Shown here: one piece after another, positions 1-33,804 of the stretch
How positions within the stretch are numbered: the stretch's first letter is position 1
How the letters are laid out: each line of letters opens with the position of its first letter
NCBI GenBank assembly: GCA_026002855.1
Contig: BPGD01000001.1
Span: forward strand, 434,001-498,000
Direction of reading: 5' to 3'
Length of the DNA stretch: 64,000 nt
Source: Bryobacteraceae bacterium
GTDB lineage: Bacteria; Acidobacteriota; Terriglobia; Bryobacterales; Bryobacteraceae
Made by a program: the position numbers and the translations under genes
Notes under the pieces: model-generated
Seen by the model: only the letters and a program-made list of their open reading frames with translations
Databases searched by the model: none
What the model was told of the DNA's origin: nothing

Positions 1-806
1 ATCCGTTGCTGAGCATCGTTGGCGGCCTTGTGCCGGAGCGGTTGAACGCGTTCGGCAGCGGACCGCTGCTGAACGACGGGCTACCGCAGCGGTTTTTGTT
101 TTTCCTTGCCCGGGAGACGTCGGATTCTGCAGGGTCGCCGAGCCCACCCGAGGTCAGGCGCGCCTACGAAGACTTGATCGAGAAGATGGCCCGTCTCCGA
201 GGTACGGCCTACAATCGCGAGTCGAATCTGGTTTTACGGAAGTTCTCCCCGTCGGCCGGAGAGCTCTTTCGGCAGTTGGCCGCCGACCTGCGTGAGAGCG
301 CGAAATCGGCAGGCGATGCCGCACTTTGCTCGTACGGCCCCAAACTCGTTTCTCTGTTGGCTCGGCTCGCGCTGCTGCTTCACGAGGCGGCCGTGGCGGA
401 TGGAGCTGACCCCGACGTCGTGGATGAAGCGCCGCTCTGGGGAGCCTACTTTCTGGCCGATTTTGCGCTCGAGAGCTTTCACCGAGTCTTGCAAATCCTG
501 CGTGCGGGAGTCGACCTCGATCGTTGCAAGCGGCTGGCGAGGGCCGCGGCGGAAGCCGGCGGCGAGATCTCTGCGCGAGAGGTGTATTCGCGGCACATCG
601 CTGGGGTCCGGTCAGCGGCCGAAGCCGCGCAGCTTTTTGCTGACGCCGAGCGGCTGGGATTCGGGGAGATTGCCGTGCGCGTGCCTGCGACGGGCGGCCA
701 TCCGCAGACGTTTTTCCGGGTGCGCTTTTCTGGCCAGCGGTCCGGGGTGGAGCAGTTGCAGAAGTCGAGTGCAGCACGAGTGCAGCATGGGTGTTTTGGG
801 GGATAA
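1..806 (+). CDS. DUF3987 (YfjI-like) domain protein, C-terminal part
   Basis: The reading frame is open to the left edge, so only the C-terminal ~267 residues are visible. The pattern (a run ending in SYGPKL followed by a helical segment LLARLALLLHEAA, an AYFLADF helix, then a small winged-helix-like end with EISAREVYSRH) resembles the C-terminal part of DUF3987/YfjI proteins. These are helicase/primase-associated proteins usually found on plasmids, phages and integrative elements. The last ~14 codons run into the repeat that begins at 765, so the present C-terminus may have been created or altered by that repeat. Family assignment rests on the tail alone. The N-terminal part is outside the window. 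Confidence 0.6.
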   Translation, partial: PLLSIVGGLVPERLNAFGSGPLLNDGLPQRFLFFLARETSDSAGSPSPPEVRRAYEDLIEKMARLRGTAYNRESNLVLRKFSPSAGELFRQLAADLRESAKSAGDAALCSYGPKLVSLLARLALLLHEAAVADGADPDVVDEAPLWGAYFLADFALESFHRVLQILRAGVDLDRCKRLARAAAEAGGEISAREVYSRHIAGVRSAAEAAQLFADAERLGFGEIAVRVPATGGHPQTFFRVRFSGQRSGVEQLQKSSAARVQHGCFGG

Positions 807-1000
807 GTTGTTCTGCCGAAACGGCTTATGGGCAATCATGGGCGAGTGCCGTGTGCAGCATAAGATATAGAAGTTTCGGGCCGGGTCCTGAATTCTCCAT
901 CTATTATGCTGCACACGGCACTCGCCCGAAATTGGCAATAACACAAATCCTATCAATGGCTTGCAGTCAAAAATCGAGTGCAGCATCGATGCTGCACTCG
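765..1000. repeat. Left complex terminal repeat (blocks A, B, C)
   Basis: Block A (766-788) is two direct copies of CGAGTGCAGCA(T). Block B is a perfect 24-base inverted repeat, 840-863 against 904-927, around a 40-base loop, with arms containing GCCGTGTGCAGCATAA. Block C (975-1000) is a 26-base perfect palindrome. The motif GTGCAGCA(T) or its complement occurs six times. The same blocks occur in reversed order at 19086-19323, with the intervening sequence much more diverged than the motifs. This suggests protein-binding sites kept by selection. Confidence 0.8.
975..1000. other. Left 26-bp palindrome, candidate serine-recombinase crossover site
   Basis: The site is the 12-base half-site CGAGTGCAGCAT, a 2-base centre CG, then the exact reverse complement of the half-site. 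An identical 26-base palindrome lies at 19086-19111. Two 12-base half-sites around a 2-base core is the known layout of Hin/Gin-type invertase sites, and a serine recombinase is encoded between the two copies. Because the centre CG is itself symmetric, the site has no polarity. Confidence 0.6.
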
Positions 1001-1694
1001 CGCACACTTCCAGCGCCGTCAACTTCCGCGGAACCCTCTCCATGGAACGTCTCCTCCGCATTCTGTTCCTCCTGATCGCTTTGAGTCCCATCGCCTGGAC
1101 CGAGCTCCTGGATCATCCCGGGACTCCACAACGAATCAGCAGTGAGTCGTGAGAACCATCTCATGTCCGTTCGCCGCTGGCCTCATGCGCCATCAGAACG
1201 GATCTCGCGCAGTCGACTCGGAAGCGCGAGATTGCCGATGCTATCCTGGACGCGGCGCCATATTGCCGCGACCCGATGGCCGGGCTGGGAGTTGCCTCAG
1301 GGCCCTGATTTTGGCATCCGATGGCGAGTCGCGGTCGCTTACACTGCAGACTCTGGATCAGGCTCCGCGGATGATTCCAATCAGCAGCAGAGGCAGACTC
1401 CAGTCCGACACCGACAAGCAGCTCGTCACTCCAACGCGCAAAAACAGGACAGAACATCGCAGTCGGCTCGCGATCGAACCTGGGCTCTCGGCTTGGTGCG
1501 GCTTCCACGATCTTTCGAACTGGCTTGTTGAAGTGCCCTCGCGGCTTTCAGAGCCTCTGCATGCCCGTGGTAGGGCCGACGCCGCTTGCGGTGATGAAAT
1601 CCAGCAGAGAAGCCCCACTTCCCAGACAATCAGCGAAGCCGATATTTTCAGCATTCGTGACGAATTGCGGCGGAGTTCTGTCTCAGCTTCCACG

Positions 1695-2030
1695 TCGGAC
1701 AGATTCGGACGGAGGGGTGGGCGCATTGCTGTCCGAAACTGGCCGAAGCGTAAGTTGCTGCAGGGAGGAGAGATATCCGTCTGGCCGCCGGGTTTCGGAC
1801 AGTTCGGACGGTCTTTCCGGCTATATTTTCTTCTTTCATTCTTCTTCTTTTTTTTCTTCTCCTGAAAGTTGTACAGAAGGGACAATTAGAAAGAGAAGAA
1901 AGTAGGCTCCCGATCTGTCCGAACTGTCCGAAGGGGCCGATTCTGATCGATAAGCCGTGCATTATCATTTGCTTGCGATTCGGACAGTTTCGGACAGCAA
2001 TACCGCCCCCCACTGTCCGAAACCGTCCGA
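1695..2030. repeat. Iteron-like cluster of CGGACAG / CTGTCCG sites
   Basis: Six sites of the form TTCGGACAG, most of them doubled, lie within ~335 bases: 1695-1712, 1729-1740, 1793-1811 (forward TTCGGACAG followed by TTCGGACGG), 1915-1934 (two copies of CTGTCCGAA), 1979-1997 (forward pair) and 2013-2030 (reverse pair). They occur in both orientations around a pyrimidine tract. Repeated doubled sites near a gene-free region resemble replication iterons or a partition/operator array. No cognate protein can be named. The HTH protein at 3570-4907 is the nearest candidate. Confidence 0.6.
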
Positions 2031-2298
2031 CGCCACCAGCGTGATCCGGGCAAGAGCGCCGGTGGCCACTCAATGCCTGCGGGTGAGACGTCATCCCGCT
2101 CGGCGGCTGGGCTCTGCTCCGCGGTGGCCCCATGCCTTCGGGTGGGATTCCATCGACTGGTTCACGACCCAAATCAGCACACCGGCGACCGCTCCTGACG
2201 GCCGGGCACGCAAGCAAGACATTCCGACACCGGAACCCTGTGCTAGCGGGGCGGAAAGAACTCCAGCAGCGTGTTGCCAGGCTCATTGCCGGTTGACT

Positions 2299-2410: not shown

Positions 2411-2508
2411 GCAGCGCGACGCTGGAGGACCATTGCCGCAGCGTCTCCCGATGCACGGAGCCAAGCGTCCGCGTCAGACTCCAATGCGCGAAACCTGAAG
2501 TTGGCGCA

Positions 2509-2971: not shown

Positions 2972-3569
2972 GGGGAAGTCATGGCCATGACACAAGCTGC
3001 ACTCCCGCAACGGATCCCGACGCGCCGGGCTGAGGGCGGTTGCCAGAGATGGAGACCGAAATCCGGCATCGGATGCCGAAGCGGCAAGCTGATGGCCGGC
3101 ATCGAGACGTCGGATCTCGTTTGACGGGCTGCCGAAGCGCATTTCTCCGCTGCGGAGTGTTGATTCAGCAGCCGGCAATACCGGCGTTCTTTCTCGCACC
3201 GTCCTTCATGCCGGCTCGCTGTGGCTGCGGCATGCCTCTGCAGGCTGTTGCCGCAGATCGCCTTGCTGCAGGCTCACTGAGCATGCGCTTCGGAAATGCT
3301 CTTTGCTGTGCGGCACCGGGCTGCGGAGCGCCTGACGCGCTTCCGCACCGAGGCTCGATTCGCCACCGCAGGCGACGGCTGCGAGTGGTCAGCCCCGCCT
3401 CCCGGCTTGCTTCCGGACTTCGTGACAACGCAGCCGGGCATCGCGTATCGGAATCCGGCACTCAGCACGCGACACACCGATTGGCGCCAGACGACTCCCG
3501 TCACCGGGAACTCGAATCCCCCTGCGCGGGATCGACGCTCCGACCCGCTGCGCCTGCATTCCACCGTCG

Positions 3570-4907
3570 TCAGTCGTCGAACTCGTCGTCGTCATCCACG
3601 TCTTCCACGATCTCCTCCACCGCCTCGAGGATCAGCTCCTCTACCCGCTTCTGCGTGCCGGCCTCGGCAGGTTCGGCCCCCTGCCGCAGCAGATCAAACA
3701 CCGCCTCCTCGAGCCGCGTCTGAATCGCTCGACACGTCCCGTGGAAGTCCCGCTCGCCCCCGAACTCAATGTCACCACCGCGCTCCAGCCTCCGCAGCAC
3801 GTGCGGCACCTGATCCAGAAGCAGGATCCGCGCCAGGCTGCGCAGATGGGACTGCTCGAGCCGCTGCGAAAACTCCTCCATTTGCCGCTGCCTCGCCGCT
3901 TGCTCGGCCTGCTGCCGCTCGCGCACCCGGGCCAGACATTCGGCCTCGATGCCTGCCGCCAGCTCGCGCAGCGCTGGCTCGTTGCTTGCAGCCGCGCTCC
4001 GCACGCGCCACACCTCCAGCGCCTGCTCCCGCTCGCCGCCCGTTGCGCCCGCGCGCCGCAGCGCGTCCTCCAGACGCTTGCCCAGCTCCTCGGCCAGCTT
4101 CTGCAACTGGTAGCGCTCCAGCACCGGCGCGAGCGCCCGCCGCGCCGCCGCCTCGCGCACCGGCACCGGCGCTTCCAGCTCCAGCTGCCGCAACGCCTCG
4201 TGCATCGCCGTCAACGCCTGATCGCGCAGAGCCGAATAGCGAGAATCCCGCGCCAGCTCCCCGTGCTCGCCCAGCAGCCGCTCCAGGAGCCGCCGGTCCT
4301 GCTCGGCCACGCGCAGCGGCCACCGCGCTGCCTGCTCGACCGCCTCCAGCAGCCGATTGAGAAACTCGTCGCCGGGAAGCGGATTCAGGGCGCTGAGACG
4401 GCGCTCGAAGACCTCCATCGCCGCCAGCCGCGGCTCCGGGGGCAGATCAGCAAACCGCCGGGCCGCGCGATCCAGCCACTGCTGCCGCTGCCACTGGTCG
4501 CGACGAGCCGCCTCCTGCTGCTCTTCGAGCTCCTGCTGCCGCCGCCGCGCTTCCTCCTGCTCGCGCCGCTGTCGCGCTTCTTCGGCGCGCAGCCGCGCTT
4601 CGGCTTCCTCGCGCTGCATCCGCATGCGCTCGAGCCGCAGGCGGAGCTTTTCGGCCTCCAGCTGCTCGGCCAGGCGCGCCGCTTCCGATCCCGGCCGGAG
4701 TCTCATCGTGGCTGGCGCGGCGCGGGGCAGGAGCTTGCCTTCGGCACGGACACGCCGGATCTCGGCGGCAGCAATTCGCATCTGGCCGCCGGGGGTTGTT
4801 TCCGCTTCGATGCGGCCCTCGGCCACCCAGCGGCGGATGGTGTCGTCGCTGACGCCGAGCAGCCGGCCGGCCTGAGAAGTCGTGTAATAATCCCTGGATT
4901 TCGGCAT
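3570..4907 (-). CDS. MerR/excisionase-type HTH protein with long coiled coil
   Basis: A 445-residue protein. Residues ~5-60 form a MerR/excisionase-like helix-turn-helix (YTTSQAGRLLGVSDDTIRRW, then a GRIEAETTPGGQMRI wing). Residues ~75-145 are an almost uninterrupted Arg/Glu/Gln-rich coiled coil. The middle is helical, and the C-terminus ends in a strongly acidic tail (EDVDDDDEFDD). The architecture, a DNA-binding head with a long helical stalk, is seen in plasmid partition or site-organising proteins and in some transposition accessory proteins. I do not recognise a named family. It lies alone on the minus strand between the repeat-rich region and the recombinase. Its start is preceded by degenerate short repeats. 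Confidence 0.75.
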   Translation of the reverse strand: MPKSRDYYTTSQAGRLLGVSDDTIRRWVAEGRIEAETTPGGQMRIAAAEIRRVRAEGKLLPRAAPATMRLRPGSEAARLAEQLEAEKLRLRLERMRMQREEAEARLRAEEARQRREQEEARRRQQELEEQQEAARRDQWQRQQWLDRAARRFADLPPEPRLAAMEVFERRLSALNPLPGDEFLNRLLEAVEQAARWPLRVAEQDRRLLERLLGEHGELARDSRYSALRDQALTAMHEALRQLELEAPVPVREAAARRALAPVLERYQLQKLAEELGKRLEDALRRAGATGGEREQALEVWRVRSAAASNEPALRELAAGIEAECLARVRERQQAEQAARQRQMEEFSQRLEQSHLRSLARILLLDQVPHVLRRLERGGDIEFGGERDFHGTCRAIQTRLEEAVFDLLRQGAEPAEAGTQKRVEELILEAVEEIVEDVDDDDEFDD

Positions 4908-5856: not shown

Positions 5857-6501
5857 TCAGCTCCCGCTTTCGACGGCCAGCAGGTTTTCGGCACGCCGCG
5901 CCTGCCACTCCGCCCACACCCGCCGCGCCGTGCCCGTGCTGATGCCCAGCCGGCGGGCCACCTCGCGCCAGCTCGCCCCGCGCCGGCGCAACTCGATCAC
6001 CGCAAATCGGTCGAAAACCCGCCGCGGCCGGCCCAGCCGCTTGCCCTCGCGCCGGGCCCGCTCCAGCCCCGCCCGCACCCGCTCCTGGATCCGCAGCCGC
6101 TCCTGCCGCGCCAGCGACGCCAGCAGCGCAATCAGCGCCTCGCCAAACGGCCCGGCCGAGTCCAGATACGGCTCCGTGTAGCTGCGCCAGGCGACGCCGT
6201 AACGGGAGAGCTGATCCAGCAGCTCGAGCGTCTTGAGCGCCCCCTGCCGCGACAGCCGGTCGAGCGACCAGAACAGCAGCAGATCAAACCGGCGCTGCGA
6301 GGCCGCCTCGAGCATGGCGCGCAGCGCCGGCCGGTCCGAGCGCGCGCCGCTGGACTCGTCGACGAACTCGTCGACAACCTGCCAGCCCTGCCGCGCCGCG
6401 AACTCCCGCAGCGGAAGCAACTGGTTGTCGGCCGTCTGGCCCTGGTCCGAGGTCGACACCCGGGCGTAGAGCGCAACGCGCGTTCTTGCGGAAGGTTTCA
6501 T
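5857..6501 (-). CDS. Serine site-specific recombinase (resolvase/invertase type)
   Basis: A 214-residue small serine recombinase. The N-terminal catalytic motif is ALYARVSTSDQ, with the nucleophile Ser16 after Arg14. FDLLLFWSLDRLSRQG supplies the conserved DRLSR arginines. The long E-helix region is followed by GRPRR and a C-terminal helix-turn-helix (SWREVARRLGISTGTARRVW). That is the Hin/resolvase layout rather than the large-serine-integrase one. The ATG at 6501 is chosen because the family normally begins a few residues before the first strand. A second ATG lies six bases upstream. It sits between two identical 26-bp palindromes (975, 19086) of the right format to be its sites. Possible roles are inversion, excision or multimer resolution of the element. 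Confidence 0.9.
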   Translation of the reverse strand: MKPSARTRVALYARVSTSDQGQTADNQLLPLREFAARQGWQVVDEFVDESSGARSDRPALRAMLEAASQRRFDLLLFWSLDRLSRQGALKTLELLDQLSRYGVAWRSYTEPYLDSAGPFGEALIALLASLARQERLRIQERVRAGLERARREGKRLGRPRRVFDRFAVIELRRRGASWREVARRLGISTGTARRVWAEWQARRAENLLAVESGS

Positions 6502-7684
6502 GGCCATGTCATCCCGGTCAGACGATGATAGGCCCCTTTCGGCTTCAGCCGACCTGCGTGGCGCTCGAGCAGCCGCAACATCCAAAACCGGCCGCGATCG
6601 ACAGCGGGCCCTGATCCGCACGCACAGCTGATCGGACTGGGGGCCCAATCGCGGCAACGCCATGTCCCAGCTCGCCCGAATCGGCCCTCCTCCCAGCGCG
6701 TGCAACAATCGCCATTTCGGCTTCGTCCACCATCGCCTGTGTCAGCCGCAGCGGGTGGTCGGCGGTCAAGGCCCCTCCGGGGCTTCCGAAAGGGGCTTCT
6801 CTTGCTGTTATCCATCATCAGGCTTGGACAGGCTCCGGCACGGCCGAGACAAATCACAGGTACCCTGTTCTGGAAGAATTCATCTCTCAACTGGCCGCTT
6901 TCTGCTCGCGCAATAGTCGGCAGTCGGAACCCCATCCGGAAGTGCTATTTTCGGCACTAGTTCCGCCCGAATTGAAGCCAAAACAGCAAATCCTCGAAAA
7001 TCAACGCTCCGAACTGCAGCTTTTGGCCAAATTCGGATGTCGGATTTTCGGGACGCTGTCGGCCCGGCCTACGGAGGCTCGCCGATCAGCACCCACTCCG
7101 GCCCGCTGCGGCATTCCCCCACCCAGCCACCACGGCCAGCCCCGAGCCAGATCCGGCCTCGACATCGGGGCTCGCTACAGGGATCGGCCGGCGCCGTGGC
7201 GAATTCATTTGGGGCTCGCTGCGCCTCACCTTGGCTCGCCAGCCGAATGCCGCCTCCAGCATGCTGGCAGCCCAGAAGCGCATCCCGCCGACTGCTCGTG
7301 CGACGGCGTAACCCTGGAACCCTTGGCGTGGCACTGCGTCTCATACGCAGCACAAGATGCAAGCGACAAGTCAGCCCAGTGTGCTGCTGAGATCGTGCCG
7401 CGCGTTCCGCTCGCTTTGGTTGTCGCCCTCATTGGGGACGCCGTCTGTTTCGTCCGGAATGGAACGCGGCTTCCGGCTGACACAACAGAAAGGCCGCCCC
7501 AGATCGTGATTGCAGCACCTCAATCCGCCTCTGCGCCCGGAGATTGCGGTTCAAGCATTTTTTCACCCTTCCCGCCCCGGCTGCGCCATCGGGGCGATCA
7601 TGCCTGTTGACCACGAGCTGTGCGAAAATCGGAACGCGCCCGGCTGCCTGCTGCAAAGTCATCTCCCAAGCGCGCCGAGCCGGT
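6502..7684. other. Gene-free stretch between recombinase and defence operon
   Basis: About 1.2 kb with open frames on both strands, but none has a recognisable protein pattern, plausible ribosome binding site or consistent codon use. I see no repeats. It may be decayed sequence. The defence operon ends at 7685 and no clear hairpin terminator was noticed after it. Confidence 0.4.
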
Positions 7685-10600
7685 TCACACCACCACCTCT
7701 GCCACAAACCCCGGCCAGTCTGCCGCAGGAAACGGCGCGGGGGCGCCGGGGCGCTCCAGGAGCACCATGAGGGCGTCCAGCGTGTCGGCACGACAGAAGC
7801 CGGCGGCGGTGTTCACCACGAATGCGGCCGGCTTGCCGCTCTGGTCGCGCAACAGCCAGCAGACGCCCGGCTGCGGCTCTTTCAACAGCGTTCCTGCGGC
7901 CGCGCGCTGCACCTCCTCAAACAGTCGCCCGCCAGGCGAGAAGAACTGATGGCTGTCGCCCGATTCTTCAAACACCTCGGCCGCAGTCGTCACGCGCACC
8001 GGTTCCGGCATGCCCGGCAGGCGCGCGGCATACGTCCGCACGTCCAGAGGCCGCCATTCCAGATTGACCGGGCGGCTCGCATCGCGGCCCATCAGGTGGT
8101 CGAGCTTCGCCAAATCGTACGGCGGCTCAGGCAGCGGCGGCACTTCCAGCCCGCTGCGGGCGGCCTCATCCAGGTCCAGCGGCGCCTCGGCTGCCGACGT
8201 CACTTCCTGCTCGATCTCTGCCAGGAACCGCTGCCGCGCCGCGTCGCGCGCTTCGCGGCTCGCCAGAGTCACCTCCTCAAAACGCCGAGGCAGCTTCGAC
8301 AGGATCGGCTGAAGCCTGCCCACGATACCCTGGAAGAGCTGGATGCGCTCCCCAACGGCGAAGTAGACGTCCGCCTCCACCGTGTCCTTGTAGGCAAAGT
8401 TCAGAATCTTTACCCGCGGCCGAGTTTGCCCCAGCCGGTCGATACGACCGATGCGCTGCTCCACTTTCATCGGGTTCCAGGGCAGGTCGTAATTGGCCAG
8501 CACACCCGCCGCTTGCAGATTGAGGCCCTCTCCGGCCGCGTCCGAACACACCAGCAGCCGCACCCGCCCCGTTTTCAACCGCCGCTTGATCTCTTCCTTG
8601 CTGCAGGCAATCCAGCGGCCCGAGCCGTCCCGCCAGGCGCCGCCTGAGCCCGAGTAGCTCGCCACCGGCACGTCGGGCATCTCCCGCGCCAGGAACTCGC
8701 GCAGGTATTCCATCGTGTCGGTGTACTGCGTGAAGACGATCGCCGACTCGGAGTCCTGCGCAAAAACACTCACCAGCTCGGCCTGCAGCCGGCGCGCTTT
8801 CGTGTCCGTGTTCAGCTTCGCAATAGCCCGCAGCAACTCCAGAATCCGGTCGCGCTCCTCCAACTCCGCGGCAGATGCCGCCAGCTCGGCCGCTTCCTCG
8901 GGGGCCATCACCTCATCGGCCGCCTCGTCGAGCGAAACGTCCTCCTCGCTCAAACCCAGCTTTTCCAGGCGCGCGTTCAGAGTGCGCTTCAGTGCCTCGA
9001 AGCTTGAGGCCAGACGCCGCCGGTAGACCGTCATCACGAATCCGATGGCCGTGCGCTTGTCCGATGCCGCCTTCGAATAGGTCTCCGAGATGTAGTCTTC
9101 CACCTGCGCATACAGCGCGCTTTCGGCCGGCGTCATCTCGACGGCAATGTCTCTCACCTCGCGCTCGGCAATCGGCAGGTCCAGCTTGCCGGCGCGGCGG
9201 TAGGCCCGCAACAGCTCCCGCGTGTGCCGCACCATGCGCCAGCGCAGCGGCGAACAGGCCTTCAGCAGGCCGAGCACCGCCCGCCGAGACTCCGGGTCCA
9301 GCATTCGGCGCGGAGCCTGCGCCGGCTCCCGCAACGCCCGAATCACCTTGGCCCGCTTGATCGCGGAAAGCCCGGGCGTCAGCTCAGCAATCTCTTCATC
9401 CCTCAACGCCCCATAGTAGGACTCACAGTCACGGAACCATTCGGCAAGCCAGTCCAGCGTCTCCGCCGATGGGTTGCCATGAATCGCCTCGTAGTACTTC
9501 AGAAACGCATGCGGATCAACCGCCCACTTCGGCGGCAGCCCAAGCAGCGCCATCAGATCCCACAGCTCCACCGGGTGCACCTGCATCGGCGTGGCGGTCA
9601 GCAGCAGCAGGCTCTGGCAGCGTGGCGCCAACTCCCACATCAGGCTGAGCAACGCATTCGGGCCCTTCTCCTGTTCTGTTCCAGCGCCGCGCCGACGGGC
9701 ATGGTGCGCTTCATCCAGTAGCACCAGGTCCCACGGCTCGGCCTCCAGCAGTTCCCGCACGCGATCCTTGCGCCGCATCAGGAAGCTCGAGGCCAGCACC
9801 ATGGGCTGCTGTTGCCACTCATCCCGTCCGACATCCTGCTCCAGCGGCCCCGTCCAGCCATAGGCCGCCCGCCAGCGCAGCGTCGCACCGTCGTAGATGG
9901 GCACATTCAGATTGAACTTTTCATAGAGCTCGTTCTGCCATTGAATCTGCACGCTCTTCGGCGTCAGGATCAGCACCCGCCGGGCCAAGCCCGCCAACAG
10001 CGCCTGCCGCACGATCAGACCCGCAGTGATCGTCTTGCCCAGCCCGACTTCATCGGCGATCAATAAACGGCAGGGCCACTGCTCAAGGAAGCGCACATAG
10101 GTGCGGACCTGGTGCGGCCACGGCACGACGGCGCTGGTGACCTCACCCGTGCGGACCCCGTGTGGCAACTGCGGCGCTGCTTTCACAAAGGTCCATACGC
10201 AGCGCCGGAACTCATCATCGGTCAGGCGATAGGCCGGCGGCGCTGGCTCTTCGCGGCGCAGAAGCGGCGGCGTCACCGGGCGATCGTCTTTCGGCAGATA
10301 CTCAAGCAGCTTCTTCCGGGCCGCCTCGGGAAAGTCGAACACCCGCGCTCCCGGCGAACGGTTATCCCACAGTTTGGCAAACGCCTCAATCTCCTCGTCG
10401 GCGTGCGCCTTCTCGGTCTCGCTCAGCCAGGCGCAGTGGACGTGAAAGCTCTCGCAGTTGTTCTTCCAACCGCCGGCGGTTTCGTTGATGCTACCCGAGA
10501 ACGTCAGCGTGTTGCCTTCGGCATCGACGATAATCCCGAACTTGGCGTGGTAGATGCCGGGCACGCGCGCGGGCCGGCCTTCGGCGTCCACGGGCACGGC

Positions 10601-10978
10601 TACCTTCACATCCAGGTGTCCGTGCGCCACCATCCAGGCCAGTAGCTCCAGCCCCTGGCGGGCATGCTCGTCGGGTGGCGTCAGATCGGCTGCGGCAAGC
10701 TGCCGCTCCATCTGTTGGCGCAGGTCATAGCCCGTCTCGATCGCCTCACGCTCGTCCGGGTCGAGCGTGCAGCCCACCACCAGCCGCATCCGCCCTTCAT
10801 TGGCGAAAAGACCGTGCAAGCCCCGCGCCGCCAGCGCCAGCGCATCGGCCGAGAAGTAGCCCGTCGTCCGGCAGTACTCCACCGCACAGGCCAGCGCCGG
10901 ATTGTAGAACAGCTCCACCAGGTCGCCGTCTTCATGCGAGTAGCGGAATTTCCACTTCGTCTCAGTCAACAGCGGCAT
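7685..10978 (-). CDS. PLD-SNF2 helicase of an Hma-type defence system
   Basis: About 1097 residues. The N-terminal phospholipase-D-like domain has a single HKD-type motif (H144, K146, D152, then SGS at 161-163 and N165). It is followed by an SNF2/DEAH helicase core: Walker A DEVGLGKT (309-316), DEAH (422-425), LLLTATP, a second RecA domain with IVFTQYTDTMEYL, and motif VI EQRIGRIDRLGQ. The ATG at 10978 overlaps the end of the methylase by 17 bases. A longer frame upstream is just the methylase read in another frame. It is the last gene of the operon ATPase, small protein, methylase, helicase. In this family it probably translocates on invading DNA. Whether the PLD domain cuts DNA here is not known. 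Confidence 0.9.
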   Translation of the reverse strand: MPLLTETKWKFRYSHEDGDLVELFYNPALACAVEYCRTTGYFSADALALAARGLHGLFANEGRMRLVVGCTLDPDEREAIETGYDLRQQMERQLAAADLTPPDEHARQGLELLAWMVAHGHLDVKVAVPVDAEGRPARVPGIYHAKFGIIVDAEGNTLTFSGSINETAGGWKNNCESFHVHCAWLSETEKAHADEEIEAFAKLWDNRSPGARVFDFPEAARKKLLEYLPKDDRPVTPPLLRREEPAPPAYRLTDDEFRRCVWTFVKAAPQLPHGVRTGEVTSAVVPWPHQVRTYVRFLEQWPCRLLIADEVGLGKTITAGLIVRQALLAGLARRVLILTPKSVQIQWQNELYEKFNLNVPIYDGATLRWRAAYGWTGPLEQDVGRDEWQQQPMVLASSFLMRRKDRVRELLEAEPWDLVLLDEAHHARRRGAGTEQEKGPNALLSLMWELAPRCQSLLLLTATPMQVHPVELWDLMALLGLPPKWAVDPHAFLKYYEAIHGNPSAETLDWLAEWFRDCESYYGALRDEEIAELTPGLSAIKRAKVIRALREPAQAPRRMLDPESRRAVLGLLKACSPLRWRMVRHTRELLRAYRRAGKLDLPIAEREVRDIAVEMTPAESALYAQVEDYISETYSKAASDKRTAIGFVMTVYRRRLASSFEALKRTLNARLEKLGLSEEDVSLDEAADEVMAPEEAAELAASAAELEERDRILELLRAIAKLNTDTKARRLQAELVSVFAQDSESAIVFTQYTDTMEYLREFLAREMPDVPVASYSGSGGAWRDGSGRWIACSKEEIKRRLKTGRVRLLVCSDAAGEGLNLQAAGVLANYDLPWNPMKVEQRIGRIDRLGQTRPRVKILNFAYKDTVEADVYFAVGERIQLFQGIVGRLQPILSKLPRRFEEVTLASREARDAARQRFLAEIEQEVTSAAEAPLDLDEAARSGLEVPPLPEPPYDLAKLDHLMGRDASRPVNLEWRPLDVRTYAARLPGMPEPVRVTTAAEVFEESGDSHQFFSPGGRLFEEVQRAAAGTLLKEPQPGVCWLLRDQSGKPAAFVVNTAAGFCRADTLDALMVLLERPGAPAPFPAADWPGFVAEVVV

Positions 10979-13859
10979 CGGCCTCGTCGAGCTCCAGTTC
11001 GATCTGCTCCGGCCGCTTCGGCTCGGGCACTTTTTCGGCAAAGGCCAGTCGGCGCAACTTCTCGAGCGCCTCAAAATCGCTGGCCGCGCCTTCGAGCGTC
11101 GGATCGGGCTTCTTCTTGCCGCGCGGGGCAACAGGGGGCAGCACGTTCAGCAGCGCTTCGAGCGCGGTCATCAAGGTCGGGTCATCGAGCAACCGCAGCG
11201 ACTCCAGCCGGTTCCGCGCCGCCTCGGTGTTCTGGAATCGCACCGTGTAGGCCGCCTCATGCAGCCGGTCGAGCATCGGCGCCCCCGGCCCAGTGGTGAG
11301 TTTGCTTTTGGTCACCCGTGTGTGGCTGTCCCACAGCGTGACGTCCTCGCCCGAAACGGCGCAGGCTACGTTTTTGACCTCCTGGTCGAAGTCCAGCCCC
11401 ACCACGCGCGCCAGTTTCAGCGCTTCGTCGGCCGGGAACTTGGGCGCGCGGAAGGCGTCCCAGGCCAGCACGTACCATTCGGTGAGCGCGTCCAGATGAT
11501 GCTGCCGCCGGACCGTGGCCAACTGCTCCATGCGCCACTGCTTCACCTCGCGCCGCGCGGCTTCAAGGGCGTCTTCCGGCGTCACGCGGTACGGGTCCCA
11601 GGGGCCGTAGAGATCGTTCTGGTATCCCTTCGGCTGTTGGCGCGCCGTGCCGCGCGTCAGCGGCCAGTGGCGCGAGAAGATCTCGAGCGCCGGGCCGAAA
11701 CAGGCCAGGTACAGGTCGATGCCCGCCAGTCCCGCTTCCTGAAACGCGCGCACCTTCTCCCGCACCACGTTGCGCACCTTCGGCTCGACCTCCTCCCAGA
11801 AGACTTGCTCGCCGCGCGCCGGCGTGTCCTCGCGCAGCCGGCAGACCAGGAAGATGGTGGACTTCGCCGCCGACTTCTCGCGGATGTGGAGGCTGCCCTC
11901 GGCCTCGGTGTGCACGGGCCAGCTGGCGGTGATGACGAAGCCCGCTTCGATCAAGCCCGTGGCGAGCGCGTCCCAGGCGTCCTTGGCCTTGTGCGTGAAC
12001 ATCACGGTCATGATGCCGCCGGGCTTGAGCACGCGCCGCATCTCGGCGAAGATCCGCGCCATGCGCTGCTGGTAATCGAGGTGGGCCAGGCGCTTGGCGC
12101 CCTTCTGGCCCTGGAACTTGGCCGGGTTAGCGACGGCTTCGCGGTCTTTGTCGGTAAGGTGTGCGGTGAACAGCTCCGGATACAGCAGCCCGGCCGTGCG
12201 CTTGAGCCAGACGTAGAAGAAGTCCGCGAGCTCGGCATACATCACATTGTCGTAATACGGCGGGTCCATGACGATGCAGTCCACCGAAGCGTCGGGGAGC
12301 GACAGCGCGTCGGCGGACTCGCACAGGATCTTCACCTCCGGCTGGCGGCGCGGCGGGCGGGCGAAGAGGTTGCCGTTCGTTGAGGTTTCCGGGGCGTGGC
12401 CGAGGAGTTCGATCAACTCGCCGAGGGCTTTGCCGGTCTGTTCGAGCGCCCAATCGTAGCCGAGCCCGGTGATGGTGGGGGCCATTTCGGCATAGGACCA
12501 TTTGAAGCTGAAGTCGTGGCGGTCGAAGTAGCTGCGCACACGACCCGTGCTTGGGTCCCAGTGGCAACCGATGGCGTTGTAATAGGCGACCTTGTCCAGG
12601 GCCAGGGCGATGTAGACCATAGCGGCGCGGTCGAGTTCGGAGAGTTGACCGCCGTTTTTTGCTTTGAGCTCCTCGACCATGTCCTGGAAGACTTCGACCG
12701 AGGTGCAGTGGCCGTAAAGCTGGCGGGGGTTGAAGACGTCGACCCACTTCTGCGCACCGAATCGCATCGGCTCCATCGTCTTCAGGCCCTCGGGGATCTC
12801 CTCATCCGGCACGATGTTGCGCGCCTGCCACAGCGGCATCTTCTCGGCGAGCCGCTGCTCGACCAGCGCGTCGACGTCGTCTTCCGGCCGCGGGGCGCGG
12901 AAGCCGCGCACGAGCTTGGTCTTCGGCTTGCCGTTCTTGAGCTTTCCGACGACGACTTCCTTCTTGTAGACCACGCAGTAAAGCTGGTGGCCCATGCGTC
13001 CGGCTTGCGCCTGGCGCTTGATGTCGTCTCCGTCGATCTCGCGCCCGCAATCGGGAAAGGGACACTTGCCCACGCCGTCCTTGACCGTGCCGGGGGAATG
13101 TTCGCTCGCCTTGTGGACGATCTCGAAGCGGATGCGCCGGCCTTCGGGGACCAGCCGCACGCCCGCGCCCTCGCCATCCAGCCGCCAGTTGGGCGACAGC
13201 GGAACGAGCCCCTCGCAGTAAGGGCAGGTGACCGTGCGGGCCCAGAGGTAGCCGTCGCAGATGAAGTCCTCCGGCTCATCGGGATAGAGATCGGCGAGTT
13301 GGTCACATACCCGCTTGCGGAAACTCTGGGAAAGCTCTGTGAATCGCTTCAAGACGCGAGGTCCGAGGACCGCCGGGATCTCCACCGTAGCCTTCAGGAT
13401 CAGGCTGGCGACGGGGTTGAGGTCATTCGAGATCGCGGTGCACTCGAGCCGGACTGCTTCAAAAGGGATGCTGCCGCCTCCAGCGGTCGGATCGAGAATG
13501 GTGGCTCCTTCGGCTGCGCGCAGATCCTCTGCTCCCGGCGTGTATGTGAACGCACGCGAATAGCCGTAGGCGTCCTTGCCCAAGCGCTCGCCTTCAGCCG
13601 TGGCCTTTGCGATTCGGACCCTGGATTTTACCGGATCCCCGTGAATCCCCAGCGTCCAGAGAAACTTCTGGCGGTCGGCATCGGCGGGCAAGAGGCTGCC
13701 CAAAATCGCCGCCCGGCTGGCCACCAGCGGACGCCGCGCAAACCAGACGTGGAGCCGGTTCGGCGCTGGGAACGGAGTCATGGGTGTCCGCTCGCGCAGA
13801 CTCTCTATGCCGATCTCCGCAATCGGCAGCCACTCCTCAATCAACCGGCGGTCAGCCAT
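10962..13859 (-). CDS. DUF1156 adenine-specific DNA methyltransferase
   Basis: 965 residues. The N-terminus is a typical DUF1156 start (LIEEWLPIAEIGIESLRERT, then FARRPLVASRAA). A zinc-ribbon-like insert has cysteine pairs C212/C215 and C266/C271. The N6-adenine methyltransferase motif IV is DPPYYDN at 532-538, and a motif-I-like segment LDPTAGGGSIPFEA lies near the N-terminus. Such COG1743 proteins are paired with DUF499 ATPases and SNF2 helicases in predicted restriction-like defence loci. It presumably marks self DNA, but the recognition sequence cannot be read from the protein. It follows the small gene after only a few bases and overlaps the helicase start. Confidence 0.92.
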   Translation of the reverse strand: MADRRLIEEWLPIAEIGIESLRERTPMTPFPAPNRLHVWFARRPLVASRAAILGSLLPADADRQKFLWTLGIHGDPVKSRVRIAKATAEGERLGKDAYGYSRAFTYTPGAEDLRAAEGATILDPTAGGGSIPFEAVRLECTAISNDLNPVASLILKATVEIPAVLGPRVLKRFTELSQSFRKRVCDQLADLYPDEPEDFICDGYLWARTVTCPYCEGLVPLSPNWRLDGEGAGVRLVPEGRRIRFEIVHKASEHSPGTVKDGVGKCPFPDCGREIDGDDIKRQAQAGRMGHQLYCVVYKKEVVVGKLKNGKPKTKLVRGFRAPRPEDDVDALVEQRLAEKMPLWQARNIVPDEEIPEGLKTMEPMRFGAQKWVDVFNPRQLYGHCTSVEVFQDMVEELKAKNGGQLSELDRAAMVYIALALDKVAYYNAIGCHWDPSTGRVRSYFDRHDFSFKWSYAEMAPTITGLGYDWALEQTGKALGELIELLGHAPETSTNGNLFARPPRRQPEVKILCESADALSLPDASVDCIVMDPPYYDNVMYAELADFFYVWLKRTAGLLYPELFTAHLTDKDREAVANPAKFQGQKGAKRLAHLDYQQRMARIFAEMRRVLKPGGIMTVMFTHKAKDAWDALATGLIEAGFVITASWPVHTEAEGSLHIREKSAAKSTIFLVCRLREDTPARGEQVFWEEVEPKVRNVVREKVRAFQEAGLAGIDLYLACFGPALEIFSRHWPLTRGTARQQPKGYQNDLYGPWDPYRVTPEDALEAARREVKQWRMEQLATVRRQHHLDALTEWYVLAWDAFRAPKFPADEALKLARVVGLDFDQEVKNVACAVSGEDVTLWDSHTRVTKSKLTTGPGAPMLDRLHEAAYTVRFQNTEAARNRLESLRLLDDPTLMTALEALLNVLPPVAPRGKKKPDPTLEGAASDFEALEKLRRLAFAEKVPEPKRPEQIELELDEADAAVD

Positions 13860-13869
13860 TCCTTCTCCT

Positions 13870-14313
13870 TCAGTGCGACGTCAGCAGCATGCGCAGCGCC
13901 GCCAGCACCCGGCGCGGATTCGGCCGGTGCATGGCCATGCTCATCCAATAGCTGGCCTCTTCCTTGCCCATCGCCTCCACGCCTTCGGCCACCTCGCGGA
14001 TGCGGTCGGTGTTCTTCATGGGGGCCAGCACACGGAACAGCAGCCCCAGGTGCAGCGCCGTCTCCTCTTCGAGCGGCCACTTGCGTGTCTTGCCCGGCTT
14101 CAGCGCGCCCAGCTGGATCTTCTCCTTCATCAGCCGTTTCAGTACGCGCATCTCGACCAGCCGCAGCGCGGCGCCCTGAAGCGTGCCGACGTGTTCGGGT
14201 TCCTTAAGGCGCGGCGTCGCCGGCGAAGGCAACTGGTAGATGGACAGGCTCCAGTTCATCGAGCTGGCGACCTTCAGGCGCAGCTCATAGACGGGTTTGG
14301 GCGAGTAGGCCAT
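13870..14313 (-). CDS. Small unknown protein inside the Hma-type operon
   Basis: 147 residues, beginning MAYSPKPVYELRLKV. A second ATG six codons upstream gives a longer version. No membrane segment or enzyme motif is seen. Conserved-looking blocks are LQGAALRLVEMRVLKRL, ALHLGLLFRVLAPM and EEASYWMSMAMHRPNPRRVLAALR, all helical and consistent with a small helical bundle. It lies between the ATPase and the methylase with spacings of 47 and 10 bases, so it should be co-transcribed. I recall similar short proteins beside DUF499/DUF1156 genes but cannot name the function. It may be an obligate subunit or an embedded accessory gene. Confidence 0.8.
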   Translation of the reverse strand: MAYSPKPVYELRLKVASSMNWSLSIYQLPSPATPRLKEPEHVGTLQGAALRLVEMRVLKRLMKEKIQLGALKPGKTRKWPLEEETALHLGLLFRVLAPMKNTDRIREVAEGVEAMGKEEASYWMSMAMHRPNPRRVLAALRMLLTSH

Positions 14314-14360
14314 GGCAGCGGATCCTCTCATAGCGGCGGCTCCTTCTTTCCCTGATCGCC

Positions 14361-17300
14361 TCAGGCGGCGGGGCCGGCCTGCGCTTCCACGAACGCCTCG
14401 CCGCCGCCGTAGCGCGTAATCTCTTTGGCGAAGCGCTCCGGGGCCTCGCCATCCAGGCGCAGCGCCGGTTCAAAGGCTACCGTATAGCTGGCGGTAAAGT
14501 CGCTCTCTTTGGCCGCGCGCAGTTGCGGATCCAAGAACCCCTTGGTTGCGTTGGCTTTGTCCACCGCGCCGGTATAGGAGACCTGCAATTGCTCGATGCC
14601 ATCGGCGGCGAGCTTGGCTTCCAATTGCGCGGTGACCTTGCCTCCGGCGACAGTCGCCATCGCCTGATGGACCTTCCAGGCAGCGCTGGCGTCAAACATC
14701 CGGATGACGAGCCGCTGAATGCTGGCGCACCCGGCTTTGCGCGCCTTCTCCCAAAGGTCGCTGAGCGCGGTGGCGAGCGGCCCCTCGGCCGTAAAGTCGG
14801 TGGGCGGCGGCGGGGTGGGCGGCTTGGGAGTCAGATCCACGGGGGTGATGACTCCGCCCTCGCGCACGGCGACCATCGCGGTAGCCTGCTGGCGCGCGCC
14901 GCGGCTGTCGGTGACTTCGATCTGATAGGTGGTGGTCGCCTCGGGGCTCACTTTCGCCGAACGCTGGGTTTCGCTGGTGGCTGTGGCGTTCAGGCGCGGG
15001 TCGCTCGAAGTGTAGGAGTAGGGAGGCACGCCGCCCGAGACCATCACGGTGATTTCGGCCGATTGTCCCTTGCCGATCGTGGTGGGGTTAGCGAGGAAGC
15101 TGAGACGCAGCGGCTCCGCCCGCGGCCACAGCTTCTTGGCCTTGGCATCCTCCATCGTGTGGAGGAAAGCATTGTCAGAAATCCGGATGACCGGGCTGGG
15201 ATCACCCGGCCCCCAGACCTGATCCCCTTCCCGATAAATGAAACGCCCCTGCTGAATGCCCATGCGCACACACTCAAGCAGCGGCGTGTCGTGCAGCAGG
15301 ATGGACAACTTCGGCGCCTTGCGGTATTCGAGGCGCAACTGCTGAAGCGTCATCTCGCCGCGGCCCGCAAGGCCGGTTTCCTTGGCGACGAACGCGGGCG
15401 AGTCCGGCGCGTCGCGAGCCGTGAGCAGCTTCTTCTGTTCGTAGAGCACGCGCTCGACGTGCATCTGGCCATTGCCCGGGTTGTCCGGGTTGGTCAACTC
15501 CAGAATCGTATGACCCAGCGGCAGCGTGGTCCCGGCCATCGGCGAGGCCGAAGGATAGAAAACGTGCCGGTAGCACTGAAGAATCGCCTGGGCGATCTTC
15601 AGGTCGAGTTCGTGATATTCGGCGTTGACCTTCTGGATCTGGTAGTCGGCCAGCTCCTGCTGGTTGGAAGGCTTGCGGAGCTCGCCCAGCGCCAGCTTGC
15701 GGCGCGCGAGCGTCTGCATGTTGGCGATGCCGTTTTCGGCCGCCGCCACGAAGACCAGGTTGTTTTTGAGTTCGCGGTGGTTGCGTTCGGCGCCCTTGAA
15801 CTGAAAAATATCCTCGATTTCGGGCGGCGGTTGGCGCAGGTCTGCCGGGATCGCGGTGGTCTCGTAGTTCAGAACCACGAGCAACGGGCGGGGGTCGGCC
15901 AGGTCGTCAGGCACCTCCCAGGGACCTGCGGGAAACAAAACGGCGTTGAATTCGCCGCGCGGCAGGTTGAACAGCTTGTCGATGCGGTCGCGCAGGTAGG
16001 CGCGGACCTCGCCCGAGTCGACATCCCGCATGTAGCGGCCGATCACCTGGTTCAGGTTGGCCTCGGCCATGAAACGCAGCGGCGCGCCTGGCCGGTCATC
16101 CAGATAAAGCGCTTCCGCCTGGAAGGCCGTCCGGGCTCGCTCGACGAAGGCCGGTTCGAGCGCCGGCGAGCAGACCGCCAGGCGGAGCTGCTCCGGGGAA
16201 ACTCCGCGGGCGGCGTCGCCAAAGGCCAGCGTGTGCCAGAAGATGGTGCGCGCAACGTAGGAGGTGACGGGCGGAAGTCCAGGGAATTTCTGTGCATCCA
16301 GGCGCTGGGCCAGGGCAGGTTCATCACCGGGCACCGCCGCCACGTCGGCCTTGATCGCTGCCGCATACTGGCGCATGCCGATCTTTTCGTGGATTTCGGT
16401 GCGGATGGGCTCAAAGCCTGGATCCATGTGATGGATGTGGATCGAGTAGGCGTCCGGCGGCTGGTTGCGCCAGAGCAGATGGACCGTGCGAGCCAGCAGC
16501 CGGAGCATCCCGCGGGTGCGCTGGAAGGTGGAAAGCGATGCCGTCTTCTCCGTGAGCATTTCGAGCAGCTTGGGATGCAGCGGGTAGGTGCGGGCAAACT
16601 GCTCTTTCAGTCCCGGCGACGCTGCTTCGGCTGGAAGGGCATCCTTGTTATTCGCCCAGAGGTGCGCGTAGGCGTCGATGACTTCGCCGGCCTTCGTCCG
16701 GTCCACGGTTTCGAATAGCCGCACCCGCAGGACATCCGCGGTTTCATCTTCGGCGGTGGGGTTCAGCGCGGTGGAGGAGCGGACGGCGACGCTTTCGGCT
16801 TCAGCCAGCGCGGCGGCGGCGCGTTCGTTCTCTTCCTTGTAGGCATCCTGCGCCTTGTCGTCTTTGCCGATGGCGAGCGTATAGACCAGCGCCACCTGCG
16901 GCGTGGAAGCGACAGCTTTGAACAGCGCGTGGACGAACGCCGTGAACTGGCGGCTGGCATCGGGAAATGCGCGCTCGACCTTGCGCAGGTAGACCGAGAT
17001 CTCATCGAGCATGATCAGCGTAGGCTGTTGGCCGAACAGTTCACGCAGGATTTCCGCGCCGGGTGCGATGTGTTTCTCGTCGGATGCGCGCACCCGCTCA
17101 TAGGCGGCGGCTCCGCCAAGTTGATAGGCCAGCTCGCCCCAGAGGCTGTAGGCCTTCAGGCCAGGCTCCAGCTGGCGGCCGTTGGCAGGATCGGTGTTTT
17201 CCCCGTCCAGCGCGGCGATGCGTACCTCGCCGGTGGGAAGCAGCGCCGGGTCGACGAAATCGCTCACGTTGGCGACGCCTCTCATGCCGCGCGCCGCGTG

Positions 17301-17591
17301 CGTGATGGCAATCAGGCCATGCGTCTTACCGCCGCCGTACTGCGTTCCCAGGCGAATGATGGGCGACACTTCACCGCCTTTGCCGGAGAGGCGCAGACAG
17401 ACGGCTTTCATCAGCTCCCGCAAGCCGCGCGTCGGATACGTGTTGCGGAAAAAGACGACGGGGTCGAGATAGTCCGGCAGGGCCGTGCCGTTGACCACCT
17501 GCGACAGGTCCGCCATGAATTGCTCGTCGCGCGTGGCTCCGCTCAATACGTCCGGCCTCGGTTGGCAGAGGTCAAAAATTGTCGGCGCCAT
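14361..17591 (-). CDS. DUF499 AAA-type ATPase of an Hma-type defence system
   Basis: 1076 residues. Walker A is GTQYGGGKTH (82-91), the hallmark of DUF499 (COG1483). Walker B is TLIMLDEIS (191-199). The body matches the family in length and order. Residues ~825-910 look like an immunoglobulin/PKD-like beta domain (SGGVPPYSYTSSDPRLNATA, then TTTYQIEVTDSRGARQQAT). A Pro/Thr-rich linker (TPKPPTPPPPTDF) leads to a C-terminal helical domain. The ATG at 17591 is chosen because MAPTIFDLCQPRPDVL is a normal family start; nine codons upstream another ATG exists. It is the first gene of the minus-strand operon. Its promoter should lie in the 251-base gap shared with the divergent gene at 17843. Confidence 0.92.
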   Translation of the reverse strand: MAPTIFDLCQPRPDVLSGATRDEQFMADLSQVVNGTALPDYLDPVVFFRNTYPTRGLRELMKAVCLRLSGKGGEVSPIIRLGTQYGGGKTHGLIAITHAARGMRGVANVSDFVDPALLPTGEVRIAALDGENTDPANGRQLEPGLKAYSLWGELAYQLGGAAAYERVRASDEKHIAPGAEILRELFGQQPTLIMLDEISVYLRKVERAFPDASRQFTAFVHALFKAVASTPQVALVYTLAIGKDDKAQDAYKEENERAAAALAEAESVAVRSSTALNPTAEDETADVLRVRLFETVDRTKAGEVIDAYAHLWANNKDALPAEAASPGLKEQFARTYPLHPKLLEMLTEKTASLSTFQRTRGMLRLLARTVHLLWRNQPPDAYSIHIHHMDPGFEPIRTEIHEKIGMRQYAAAIKADVAAVPGDEPALAQRLDAQKFPGLPPVTSYVARTIFWHTLAFGDAARGVSPEQLRLAVCSPALEPAFVERARTAFQAEALYLDDRPGAPLRFMAEANLNQVIGRYMRDVDSGEVRAYLRDRIDKLFNLPRGEFNAVLFPAGPWEVPDDLADPRPLLVVLNYETTAIPADLRQPPPEIEDIFQFKGAERNHRELKNNLVFVAAAENGIANMQTLARRKLALGELRKPSNQQELADYQIQKVNAEYHELDLKIAQAILQCYRHVFYPSASPMAGTTLPLGHTILELTNPDNPGNGQMHVERVLYEQKKLLTARDAPDSPAFVAKETGLAGRGEMTLQQLRLEYRKAPKLSILLHDTPLLECVRMGIQQGRFIYREGDQVWGPGDPSPVIRISDNAFLHTMEDAKAKKLWPRAEPLRLSFLANPTTIGKGQSAEITVMVSGGVPPYSYTSSDPRLNATATSETQRSAKVSPEATTTYQIEVTDSRGARQQATAMVAVREGGVITPVDLTPKPPTPPPPTDFTAEGPLATALSDLWEKARKAGCASIQRLVIRMFDASAAWKVHQAMATVAGGKVTAQLEAKLAADGIEQLQVSYTGAVDKANATKGFLDPQLRAAKESDFTASYTVAFEPALRLDGEAPERFAKEITRYGGGEAFVEAQAGPAA

Positions 17592-17842
17592 GAGTGTTTT
17601 CACCGTCCGAACGGGCATCTTACTACGACCCCAGGCTCATCTGCTGAGCCAGCGACCCCAGTACACTGGCCCCAGCATGAGATGCTTCCCTGCGGCGCAC
17701 TCCAAAAACCGGCTCGCATCAGTCCACAAAGGGAACGGCACAGGGCGTCTCTGGCACTCAAGGCTCCGGGTCTCACCACTGGCCCGGCGGCCGTCGCAAT
17801 GTCGTGAAGAAGCTGCACCAGCCCAACTTGAGGAGAATCGTC

Positions 17843-18505
17843 ATGTATGATCGCGTCACCGACTGGACCAGCTTTGCCGCCTGGGCTCGTCTCCGCTGCA
17901 ACGACCAACGGGACTTCTGCCCCTTCTGGAATGAGCCGCTCACGCCCGAGACACGCTTCCTCTACTACTCGACCACCGCTCCGCTGCCCTGTGCCGCCTT
18001 CGCCGGCCTATACTCGGCCTGCCCCAACTGGCGCATTCTGGCCTCGCAACTCCGCCACGACATCCTGCCCGAATGCTATGGCATCTACCTTTGCCGGCGC
18101 GAATGGGCCAAAAGCGACGACCCTATGACGGCGGAGGAGACCTTTCGCGGCGCCCTGGAGGCTGAGGTGTGCTGGTGCGACGAGTTGCCCATCATGCAGG
18201 CCGTCCTGATTGAGGTTGACATGGCGCTGGCCGCAGACGACGAAGCCGTCGGCTGGCCGCATCTGGTGGAGGCCTGCCGGATCTTTAATCACGACTGGCA
18301 CACCTCCGGCTGGATCTTCGAGCTGAAGATCTTTGCCACGCTCCGGGACCTGATGGCAGACCTCGGCTACTTCAAAAACGGAGCCTATCTCGTCGACGAC
18401 CCGGACGACCCCGATGATCCCGGACTTCTGGCGCAGCACTGTTTCGAGGATCCGGAAGCCAACCGCAAACTGCGGGGGTATCTGGCGGAATTCGTCCGCC
18501 TGTGA
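17843..18505 (+). CDS. Unknown protein, divergent to the defence operon
   Basis: 220 residues, starting at ATG 17843 with a good ribosome binding site (AGGAG at 17831). I do not recognise it. It is rich in Trp and Cys (for example CWCDELPIM, NHDWHTSGWIF), has no signal peptide or membrane segment, and ends in an acidic stretch (DDPDDPDDP). The single paired CysxCys and scattered cysteines could bind metal but no classical finger is formed. It is transcribed away from the DUF499 gene across a shared 251-base region, so it could be a regulator or an extra component of the defence locus. That is inference from position only. Confidence 0.75.
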   Translation: MYDRVTDWTSFAAWARLRCNDQRDFCPFWNEPLTPETRFLYYSTTAPLPCAAFAGLYSACPNWRILASQLRHDILPECYGIYLCRREWAKSDDPMTAEETFRGALEAEVCWCDELPIMQAVLIEVDMALAADDEAVGWPHLVEACRIFNHDWHTSGWIFELKIFATLRDLMADLGYFKNGAYLVDDPDDPDDPGLLAQHCFEDPEANRKLRGYLAEFVRL

Positions 18506-19085
18506 TGGCCTGCCGCGGCCAAGCGCAGGGAAGCTGGGCTCAGCGGTGCAGGTCCTGCCGTCCGAGCTCCCTTGCTCTGCGCCGAGGCCTGCAGGGCCGA
18601 CACGCCGATCTGCGCCTGGAAGCTGCAGGCCTGGCAGACCTGGTGCCGGTGCCCAAGAGGCCGGCGTTGACACGGACCCTGCAGGCTGCCCGCGTCGTGG
18701 GGTCTCAAGCGGGGGCCGATTGCAGGATCGGGATGGCCTCGCACGGCAGGAAGCCGCCACGGATGTCGCTCACAGAGGGGCGCGTGCCAGGAGCTGTGCA
18801 CGGCACGGAGTCGGTGGCCGCCGCCATCGAATCGGGCGGCCTCCTGTGGCTACACCAGGCAGGACACGCCAGCCTGACCCTGAGAGCCATGCCTTGGCGT
18901 TCCGCTGGCGGCCGGCACAGGCGCCGCCCGCCATGCTTGCCAAGGCAGGAGCAGAAGGCTGTTCATCCGGTCAGGCGGGCTGGTGCCCCGTCAAGACAGC
19001 CCAATCGCAAAAGACGTCGTTTCGAAAATGGAACAAAGCGGCAAACCCGCTGCGCGTCCCGACGGCAATCACCTCTGCCAAGGAT
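18506..19085. other. Gene-free stretch before the right end
   Basis: No supported gene in ~580 bases. The open frames in both directions have no recognisable pattern. It separates the last internal gene from the right terminal repeat. Confidence 0.4.
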
Positions 19086-19111
19086 CGAGTGCAGCATCGA
19101 TGCTGCACTCG
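19086..19111. other. Right 26-bp palindrome, candidate serine-recombinase crossover site
   Basis: Identical in all 26 bases to the palindrome at 975-1000: half-site CGAGTGCAGCAT, centre CG, complementary half-site. The two sites are about 18.1 kb apart. Confidence 0.6.
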
Positions 19112-19323
19112 AAATTCCAAGGCAAGTGGCTGATATCCAGTGACTTATCGACAGTTTCTGCCGAGTGCCGTGTGCAGCCTAATAGATGTAGAAATCCGGG
19201 CGCGTCCGCTTGCATTCCCCACTATTCATGCTGCACACGGCAGACGGCAAATTTCTGGTTTAAGTCATTGTCCATCAATGGGATAAGACCCCTTCACCCG
19301 ATGCTGCACTCGAGCTGCACTCG
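19086..19323. repeat. Right complex terminal repeat (blocks C, B, A inverted)
   Basis: Block C is the 26-base palindrome at 19086-19111. Block B is an imperfect inverted pair, 19159-19185 (GAGTGCCGTGTGCAGCC) against 19222-19249 (CATGCTGCACACGGCA). Block A (19300-19323) is two direct copies of CTGCACTCG-type sequence. Read on the minus strand this is the same A-B-C order and spacing as 765-1000. The motifs are nearly identical while the spacer sequences differ, so the ends are old or under selection only at the motifs. Confidence 0.8.

Positions 19324-33728: not shown

Positions 33729-33804
<76 letters not shown>

Follow-up and report, generated by a model that had tools for sequence, protein, structure and literature searches.

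What is the role of two mirrored blocks of repeated words that enclose a defence gene cluster? We analyzed a window of 64,000 nucleotides from a Bryobacteraceae bacterium (assembly GCA_026002855.1, contig BPGD01000001.1, genome positions 434,001 to 498,000; positions below refer to this window unless the genome is named), in which a left block, LE (765..1001), and a right block, RE (19086..19323), stand on either side of an Hma-type defence operon. A first-pass annotation of the window had taken 765-1000 and 19086-19323 for the ends of a new mobile or invertible element. By comparing the blocks with their copies in the genome and with arrays of the same build in other genomes, we arrived at a different assignment: LE is probably the replication origin of an integrative island, on which the DUF3987 protein of that island would act, and RE would be an orphan copy terminating an exchanged Hma-type cassette.

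Each block is composed of an outer pair of CGAGTGCAGCAT-type words, a central inverted pair flanking about 40 bp, and an inner perfect palindrome of 26 bp with 12-bp arms. LE is an inverted array of such words, and RE is a mirror-oriented array of the LE type. The mirror order was confirmed by two sets of inverted arms, 879-1000/19086-19207 (76% identity) and 761-791/19298-19328 (87%). With at most one mismatch, GAGTGCAGCAT matches the window 11 times, whereas 100 shuffles average 1.22 matches and never exceed 4, and 10 of these 11 matches fall inside LE and RE. The earlier description of conserved motifs with diverged spacers is also accurate, as the two blocks agree at 88 of 98 word positions and at 68 of 139 spacer positions (Fisher p=1e-11), the word positions being taken from the repeats within the left block. 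An RNA element or terminator was considered for the blocks and rejected: within 1-34000 nothing but a tRNA reaches the Rfam gathering score, and the 26-bp palindrome scores as a minus-strand terminator, a reading that leaves the other word groups unexplained.

Four block copies are present in the whole genome (4,437,915 bases in one contig): LE at genome 434,765 on the plus strand, RE at 453,086-453,323 on the minus strand, and, beyond the window available to the first-pass annotation, copy D at 207,098-207,339 (minus strand) and copy C at 4,304,250-4,304,490 (plus strand). RE, C and D are mutually close and make up one type; LE, which shares 88-89 of 98 word positions but only 68-72 of 139 spacer positions with them, represents another. 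No block copies were found in 60 other relatives, and plasmids gave no match. The inner 20-mer palindrome matched no viral contig, and it was found in one stretch of the genome collection, from Caballeronia, whose 8 kb matched none of 14 reference proteins.

The borders place the whole segment within an integrative island of about 37 kb (island 1, genome 430,484-467,777), which a tyrosine integrase has apparently inserted into a tRNA-Lys gene. This span was assigned because a 51-bp piece of tRNA-Lys(CTT) left of the integrase gene (genome 430,484-430,534, just outside the window) recurs identically as the right attachment repeat (33727..33777) in the intact tRNA-Lys(CTT) gene (33729..33804, minus strand). 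Left of the window follow, in order, the integrase gene (L033:5760-6944), an open reading frame (ORF) overlapping its end as listed, a small ORF resembling a helix-turn-helix (HTH) gene, and the start of the DUF3987 gene. The latter encodes a primase/helicase-like protein (Pfam DUF3987, PF13148, over cut-off), starts at about genome position 433,406 (L033:8407), and occupies 1..806 on the plus strand with its 3' part; its stop codon falls within LE. The predicted structure of the DUF3987 C-terminus had a mean pLDDT (predicted local distance difference test) of 42.6 and was not used. The small HTH-like ORF has no Pfam match and is 61% identical to its counterpart before a DUF3987 gene in a second genome, G033.

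A second island of about 44 kb (island 2, genome 185,113-228,861) has a related integrase and a 41-bp repeat of tRNA-Arg; its corresponding small ORF matches HTH_17 below the cut-off. Here the integrase gene is followed by an ATPase gene, an array of a second type, and directly by the cassette, namely the HTH protein, serine recombinase, Hma operon and a 217-codon ORF, ending at D; there is no LE between the ATPase gene and this cassette. Two sister genomes also possess the operon by a related integrase: G004, of the same genus, has all of it next to the integrase relative in opposite orientation, and G002 has at least hmaC there. Thus, the annotation is supported in that the defence operon travels on something mobile, and not supported in that the blocks would be its ends. 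LE and RE probably bound no such unit, because the island extends from 430,484 to 467,777 of the genome, island 2 lacks LE, and copy C stands without the operon, with no more of the 217-codon ORF inside it than the 3' end.

These data bear on the proposal that LE and RE delimit an 18.5-kb transposon, each with several transposase-binding sites like Tn7- or Mu-type ends, and that the transposase is encoded elsewhere. Such ends would equally show mirror order, conserved words and diverged spacers; moreover, LE would be one type of end and RE, C and D the other, and the homology between RE and D stops at the outer edge. However, the integrase, ATPase gene and second array of island 2 lead straight into a cassette that has no left block, and copy C encloses merely a gene fragment. 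C and RE also share their outer flank, a PEP-CTERM-type gene that is full beside C and survives beside RE as a fragment (19530..19754, minus strand, matching the terminal part of that gene at 95% identity), therefore that border is no fresh insertion. There is no convincing target-site duplication, GTCG appearing only when the borders are set inside the blocks. The absence of a DDE transposase, as originally stated, holds for the eight ORFs given to Pfam, none of which is a transposase. In other genomes, arrays built in this way are found with replication-type genes, as described below. Overall, we consider transposon ends unlikely.

To find such arrays, 31 loci (471,644 bases) were scanned for nine-letter words that contain at most six G or C and are found repeatedly, on the two strands, within 360 bases. 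The limit of six was set after the scan without it had given many G+C-rich words with scores of 5-7, often in coding DNA. Eleven arrays scored at least 7: LE, RE, C, D, the array at 1694-2013, and those in G033, G464, G454, G494 and two contigs of G501 (C50 and C335). A score of 6 was reached in island 2, G483, L116 and L124, and by one further array in L119. In the controls, run at the same step, shuffles of the scanned loci gave no window at 7 or above and one at 6, and 174,755 bases of other real sequence gave none at 6. The array at 1694-2013, annotated earlier as origin-like repeats, is real and has the joint highest score (11). It belongs to the second array type, built of TTCGGACAG-type words in palindromic groups around a 101-bp stretch of 37% G+C (1693..2036), and its sole other match in the genome is the array of island 2 (73% over 119-123 bases).

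Outside this genome, eight arrays were accepted (G033, G464, G483, two in G501, G454, G494 and G015), and each of them is located inside a presumed replication gene or immediately 3' to it, six of these genes having primase- or helicase-type domains. Under even placement, the product of chances for these positions is 2e-6. G483 was retained despite its score of 6; the other score-6 arrays, L116 (spread), L124 (in a 64-bp tandem repeat) and the second L119 array (inside an AAA gene), are outside this count. The arrangement at LE recurs in G033: a DUF3987 gene (47% identical protein) is directly followed by an array whose word, CGATTGCAGCA, differs in one letter and whose blocks are ordered alike, and a serine recombinase with 86% identity comes next. 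The remaining arrays are located at a DUF3987 gene (G015), a Prim-Pol gene with an AAA domain (G501:C50), a D5 gene (G454) and genes of AAA_25 proteins (G494 and G483), or inside the gene of an HTH_36 protein (G501:C335) and inside a gene with no Pfam match whose replication role was judged by look (G464). An upstream gene with a primase-type zinc finger is present in G454, G494 and G483, and phage capsid genes are close by in G454 and G494. The build is constant between elements, and the words differ.

Iteron-like arrays lie within ORFs at L120:497-692 and L087:7265-7530. They resemble origins located within initiator genes, such as that in lambda O. The L124 repeat (L124:18361-19800, in G004) is made of tandem 64-bp units, each of which contains a G+C-rich palindrome.

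Several observations weigh against LE being an origin of this kind. Three of the four block copies (RE, C and D) have no recognizable replication gene adjoining them. The DNA between the central words has 46% G+C in LE and 55% in RE, compared with 65% in the window, so that AT-richness is mild at LE and not clear at RE. An early search had found relatives of the DUF3987 protein in 2 of 201 genomes, own included, and none among viral contigs, phages or plasmids; a later search of 299 genomes gave 16 loci with arrays at two (own and G015), that is, at only one of 15 other loci, so DUF3987 alone is not predictive. Among 12 other loci of the integrase family, four have an array scoring at least 7 (two loci run off their contig and were unscanned), and no array was found by the scan at the operon loci of G004 and G002. 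In island 2 the second-type array behind the ATPase gene is weak (score 6), and the presumed replication gene has an AAA match below threshold only. Finally, the scanned loci had been collected via related genes, and the status of replication genes was judged with the arrays in view.

A role in site-specific recombination was also considered, in which the blocks would be res- or hix-like crossover sites where the serine recombinase of the island inverts or resolves the cargo. Sites of this kind are comparable in size to the 26-bp palindrome with its 12-bp arms; the recombinase lies in the cassette, an array and a recombinase occur together in G033, and the operon of G004 is reversed relative to the integrase. 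Against this, arrays are found at only three of 10 loci with a related recombinase (two with score 8, one with score 6), the words in G464 and G483 are unrelated, and no relative of the recombinase is present in the 20 kb examined for the arrays of G501:C50, G454 and G494. Island 1 itself has two array types and one recombinase. Crossover sites are thus very unlikely, the least probable of the explanations weighed here.

The assignment of LE as an origin leaves room for a working RE, a second cis element needed or used by the replicase. The precedent is satellite P4, which has an alpha protein and two separated repeat sets, ori and crr, in one element. The presence of two separated repeat sets is shared with the P4 replicon; the replicase is of another family, and in island 1 the defence cargo separates the two sets by 18 kb. 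In favor of a working RE, the words of LE have been kept while spacer identity dropped to 49%, and the RE type is retained at the cassette end in three places. However, for four other arrays (two in G501, one each in G454 and G494) the exact word is confined to its array within the available stretch. The word-against-spacer tests among RE, C and D gave p = 0.005, 0.19 and 0.39, and these three copies are too similar for ongoing selection to be read from them. We regard a working RE as rather doubtful, if the most plausible of the alternatives.

Returning to LE as origin and RE as orphan, we infer the following course. The integrase would first excise the island; the DUF3987 protein, whose gene lies immediately upstream, would bind to the inverted 12-bp words of LE; and the DNA between the central word pair would be opened, starting replication of the excised island. 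RE would be a second array of this origin type, orphaned and mirrored at the far end of a cassette with the second array type, HTH protein, serine recombinase, Hma-type operon and 217-codon ORF; it may still be recognized. What the sequence itself establishes is the island borders, the four copies, the array build with its conserved words, and the position behind replication-type genes.

In island 1, neither RE nor the array at 1693-2036 has its own replication gene alongside, and in island 2 the LE-type array D is an orphan. The simplest history seems to be that islands exchange cassettes and replication modules, and therefore origin arrays become separated from their own replication genes. 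It can be speculated that the islands carry each other's origins, each having its own type and an orphan of the other's, with the defence cargo, enclosed by both origin types, amplifiable by whichever replicase is induced, a scenario to which we give little probability.

The cargo includes the genes noted earlier, as confirmed by Pfam and PADLOC. All those from the HTH protein to hmaC are on the minus strand. The first, at 3570..4907, encodes an HTH_17/MerR-type protein with a long coiled-coil-like part (Pfam), and the surrounding 3239-5715 is 94% identical in DNA to island 2. It is followed by a small serine recombinase of the resolvase/invertase type (5857..6513, ORF as listed to 6708; Pfam Resolvase, PHROG DNA invertase), 98% identical in island 2 and 86% in G033. 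The operon consists of an HmaA-type SNF2/PLD helicase (7685..11131; Pfam, PADLOC HmaA 2.7e-64), an HmaB-type DUF1156 DNA methyltransferase (10962..13859; Pfam, PADLOC HmaB 2e-72), a DUF7680 protein (13870..14331; Pfam), and an HmaC-type DUF499 ATPase (14361..17618; Pfam, PADLOC HmaC 9.7e-95). Divergent from hmaC on the plus strand, an ORF of about 217 codons (17852..18505, its start lying before the stretch named) stands beside the operon in both islands and in G004. It has no match in Pfam, PADLOC or PHROGs and was found in one of 396 genomes, its own; tblastn gives a 50% relative in G004. It is conserved and may be part of the defence locus.

The operon is classified as Hma by PADLOC and as a BREX-related DUF499 system in the terms of PMC12839542, and protection from phages is predicted for it. 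PMC8565338 and PMC12839542 describe Hma and BREX-related DUF499 systems with a helicase with a PLD-type match, a DUF1156 methyltransferase and a DUF499 ATPase in one operon, as is also the case here. The fourth gene differs: it encodes a DUF7680 protein, a term absent from PMC12839542, in which type 2 has a standalone DUF3780. In G004, two extra ORFs lie in the Hma operon between DUF7680 and hmaB (L112:8071-9719), which by eye resemble a regulator/peptidase with a small partner. Between LE and the HTH gene, a 214-bp unit of the non-coding DNA is exactly duplicated in tandem (2506-2933).

Features of phage satellites are present in both islands, namely a tyrosine integrase and attachment repeats (51 bp and 41 bp of tRNA). 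As to a primase gene, DUF3987 is over the cut-off in island 1, and island 2 has the different, sub-threshold AAA protein. In phage-inducible chromosomal islands (PICIs), which include the Staphylococcus aureus pathogenicity islands (SaPIs) and the EcCI elements of E. coli, origins are located just 3' to rep and consist of an AT-rich region between sets of iterons (PMC6092414). LE shares the place immediately 3' of a replication gene and the short iteron sets on both sides of a stretch that is only mildly AT-rich here (46% G+C), and its island shares the integrase and attachment repeats. PICIs differ in having two word groups and pri-rep (PMC6092414), whereas we found three groups and a DUF3987 protein, in a 37-kb island with extra orphan arrays at the distal end of its cargo and no known helper phage. 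Phage-inducible chromosomal minimalist islands (PICMI) of Vibrionaceae possess an integrase, an overlapping gene, alpA and a DUF3987 primase (PMC10803314). The order in island 1 is the same (integrase, overlapping ORF, small HTH gene, DUF3987 primase), but PICMI are about 6 kb long and inserted at fis, in contrast to 37 and 44 kb at tRNA-Lys and tRNA-Arg, and the small HTH ORF has no AlpA match. A literature search combining "phage satellite" and "Acidobacteriota" found no paper in the library covered.

The right parts of both islands have 1.4 kb in common with 90% identity (31711-33145 and L039:10264-11668), about 0.6 kb inside the attachment repeats. A third integrase (G000:C1:3873022-3874200), 98% identical to that of island 1, lies near a tRNA-like match, with no cassette in the compared 20 kb downstream, and a scan of 40 kb showed no array there. 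All five genomes of the genus have the gene that borders the tRNA of island 1 on the right. In the stretches fetched from G002, G003 and G004, neither the tRNA nor the left-flank genes adjoin that gene, and therefore no empty site is demonstrable.

The assignment of LE replaces a supposed new transposon with an origin that is open to test. It also suggests a simple route to finding origins in related islands and prophages, by looking for inverted word arrays in or directly behind a replication gene. The orphan copies, if working, would link defence cargo with cross-replication between islands; if the islands do carry each other's origins, their defence genes would ride on, or answer to, the replication of a rival element.

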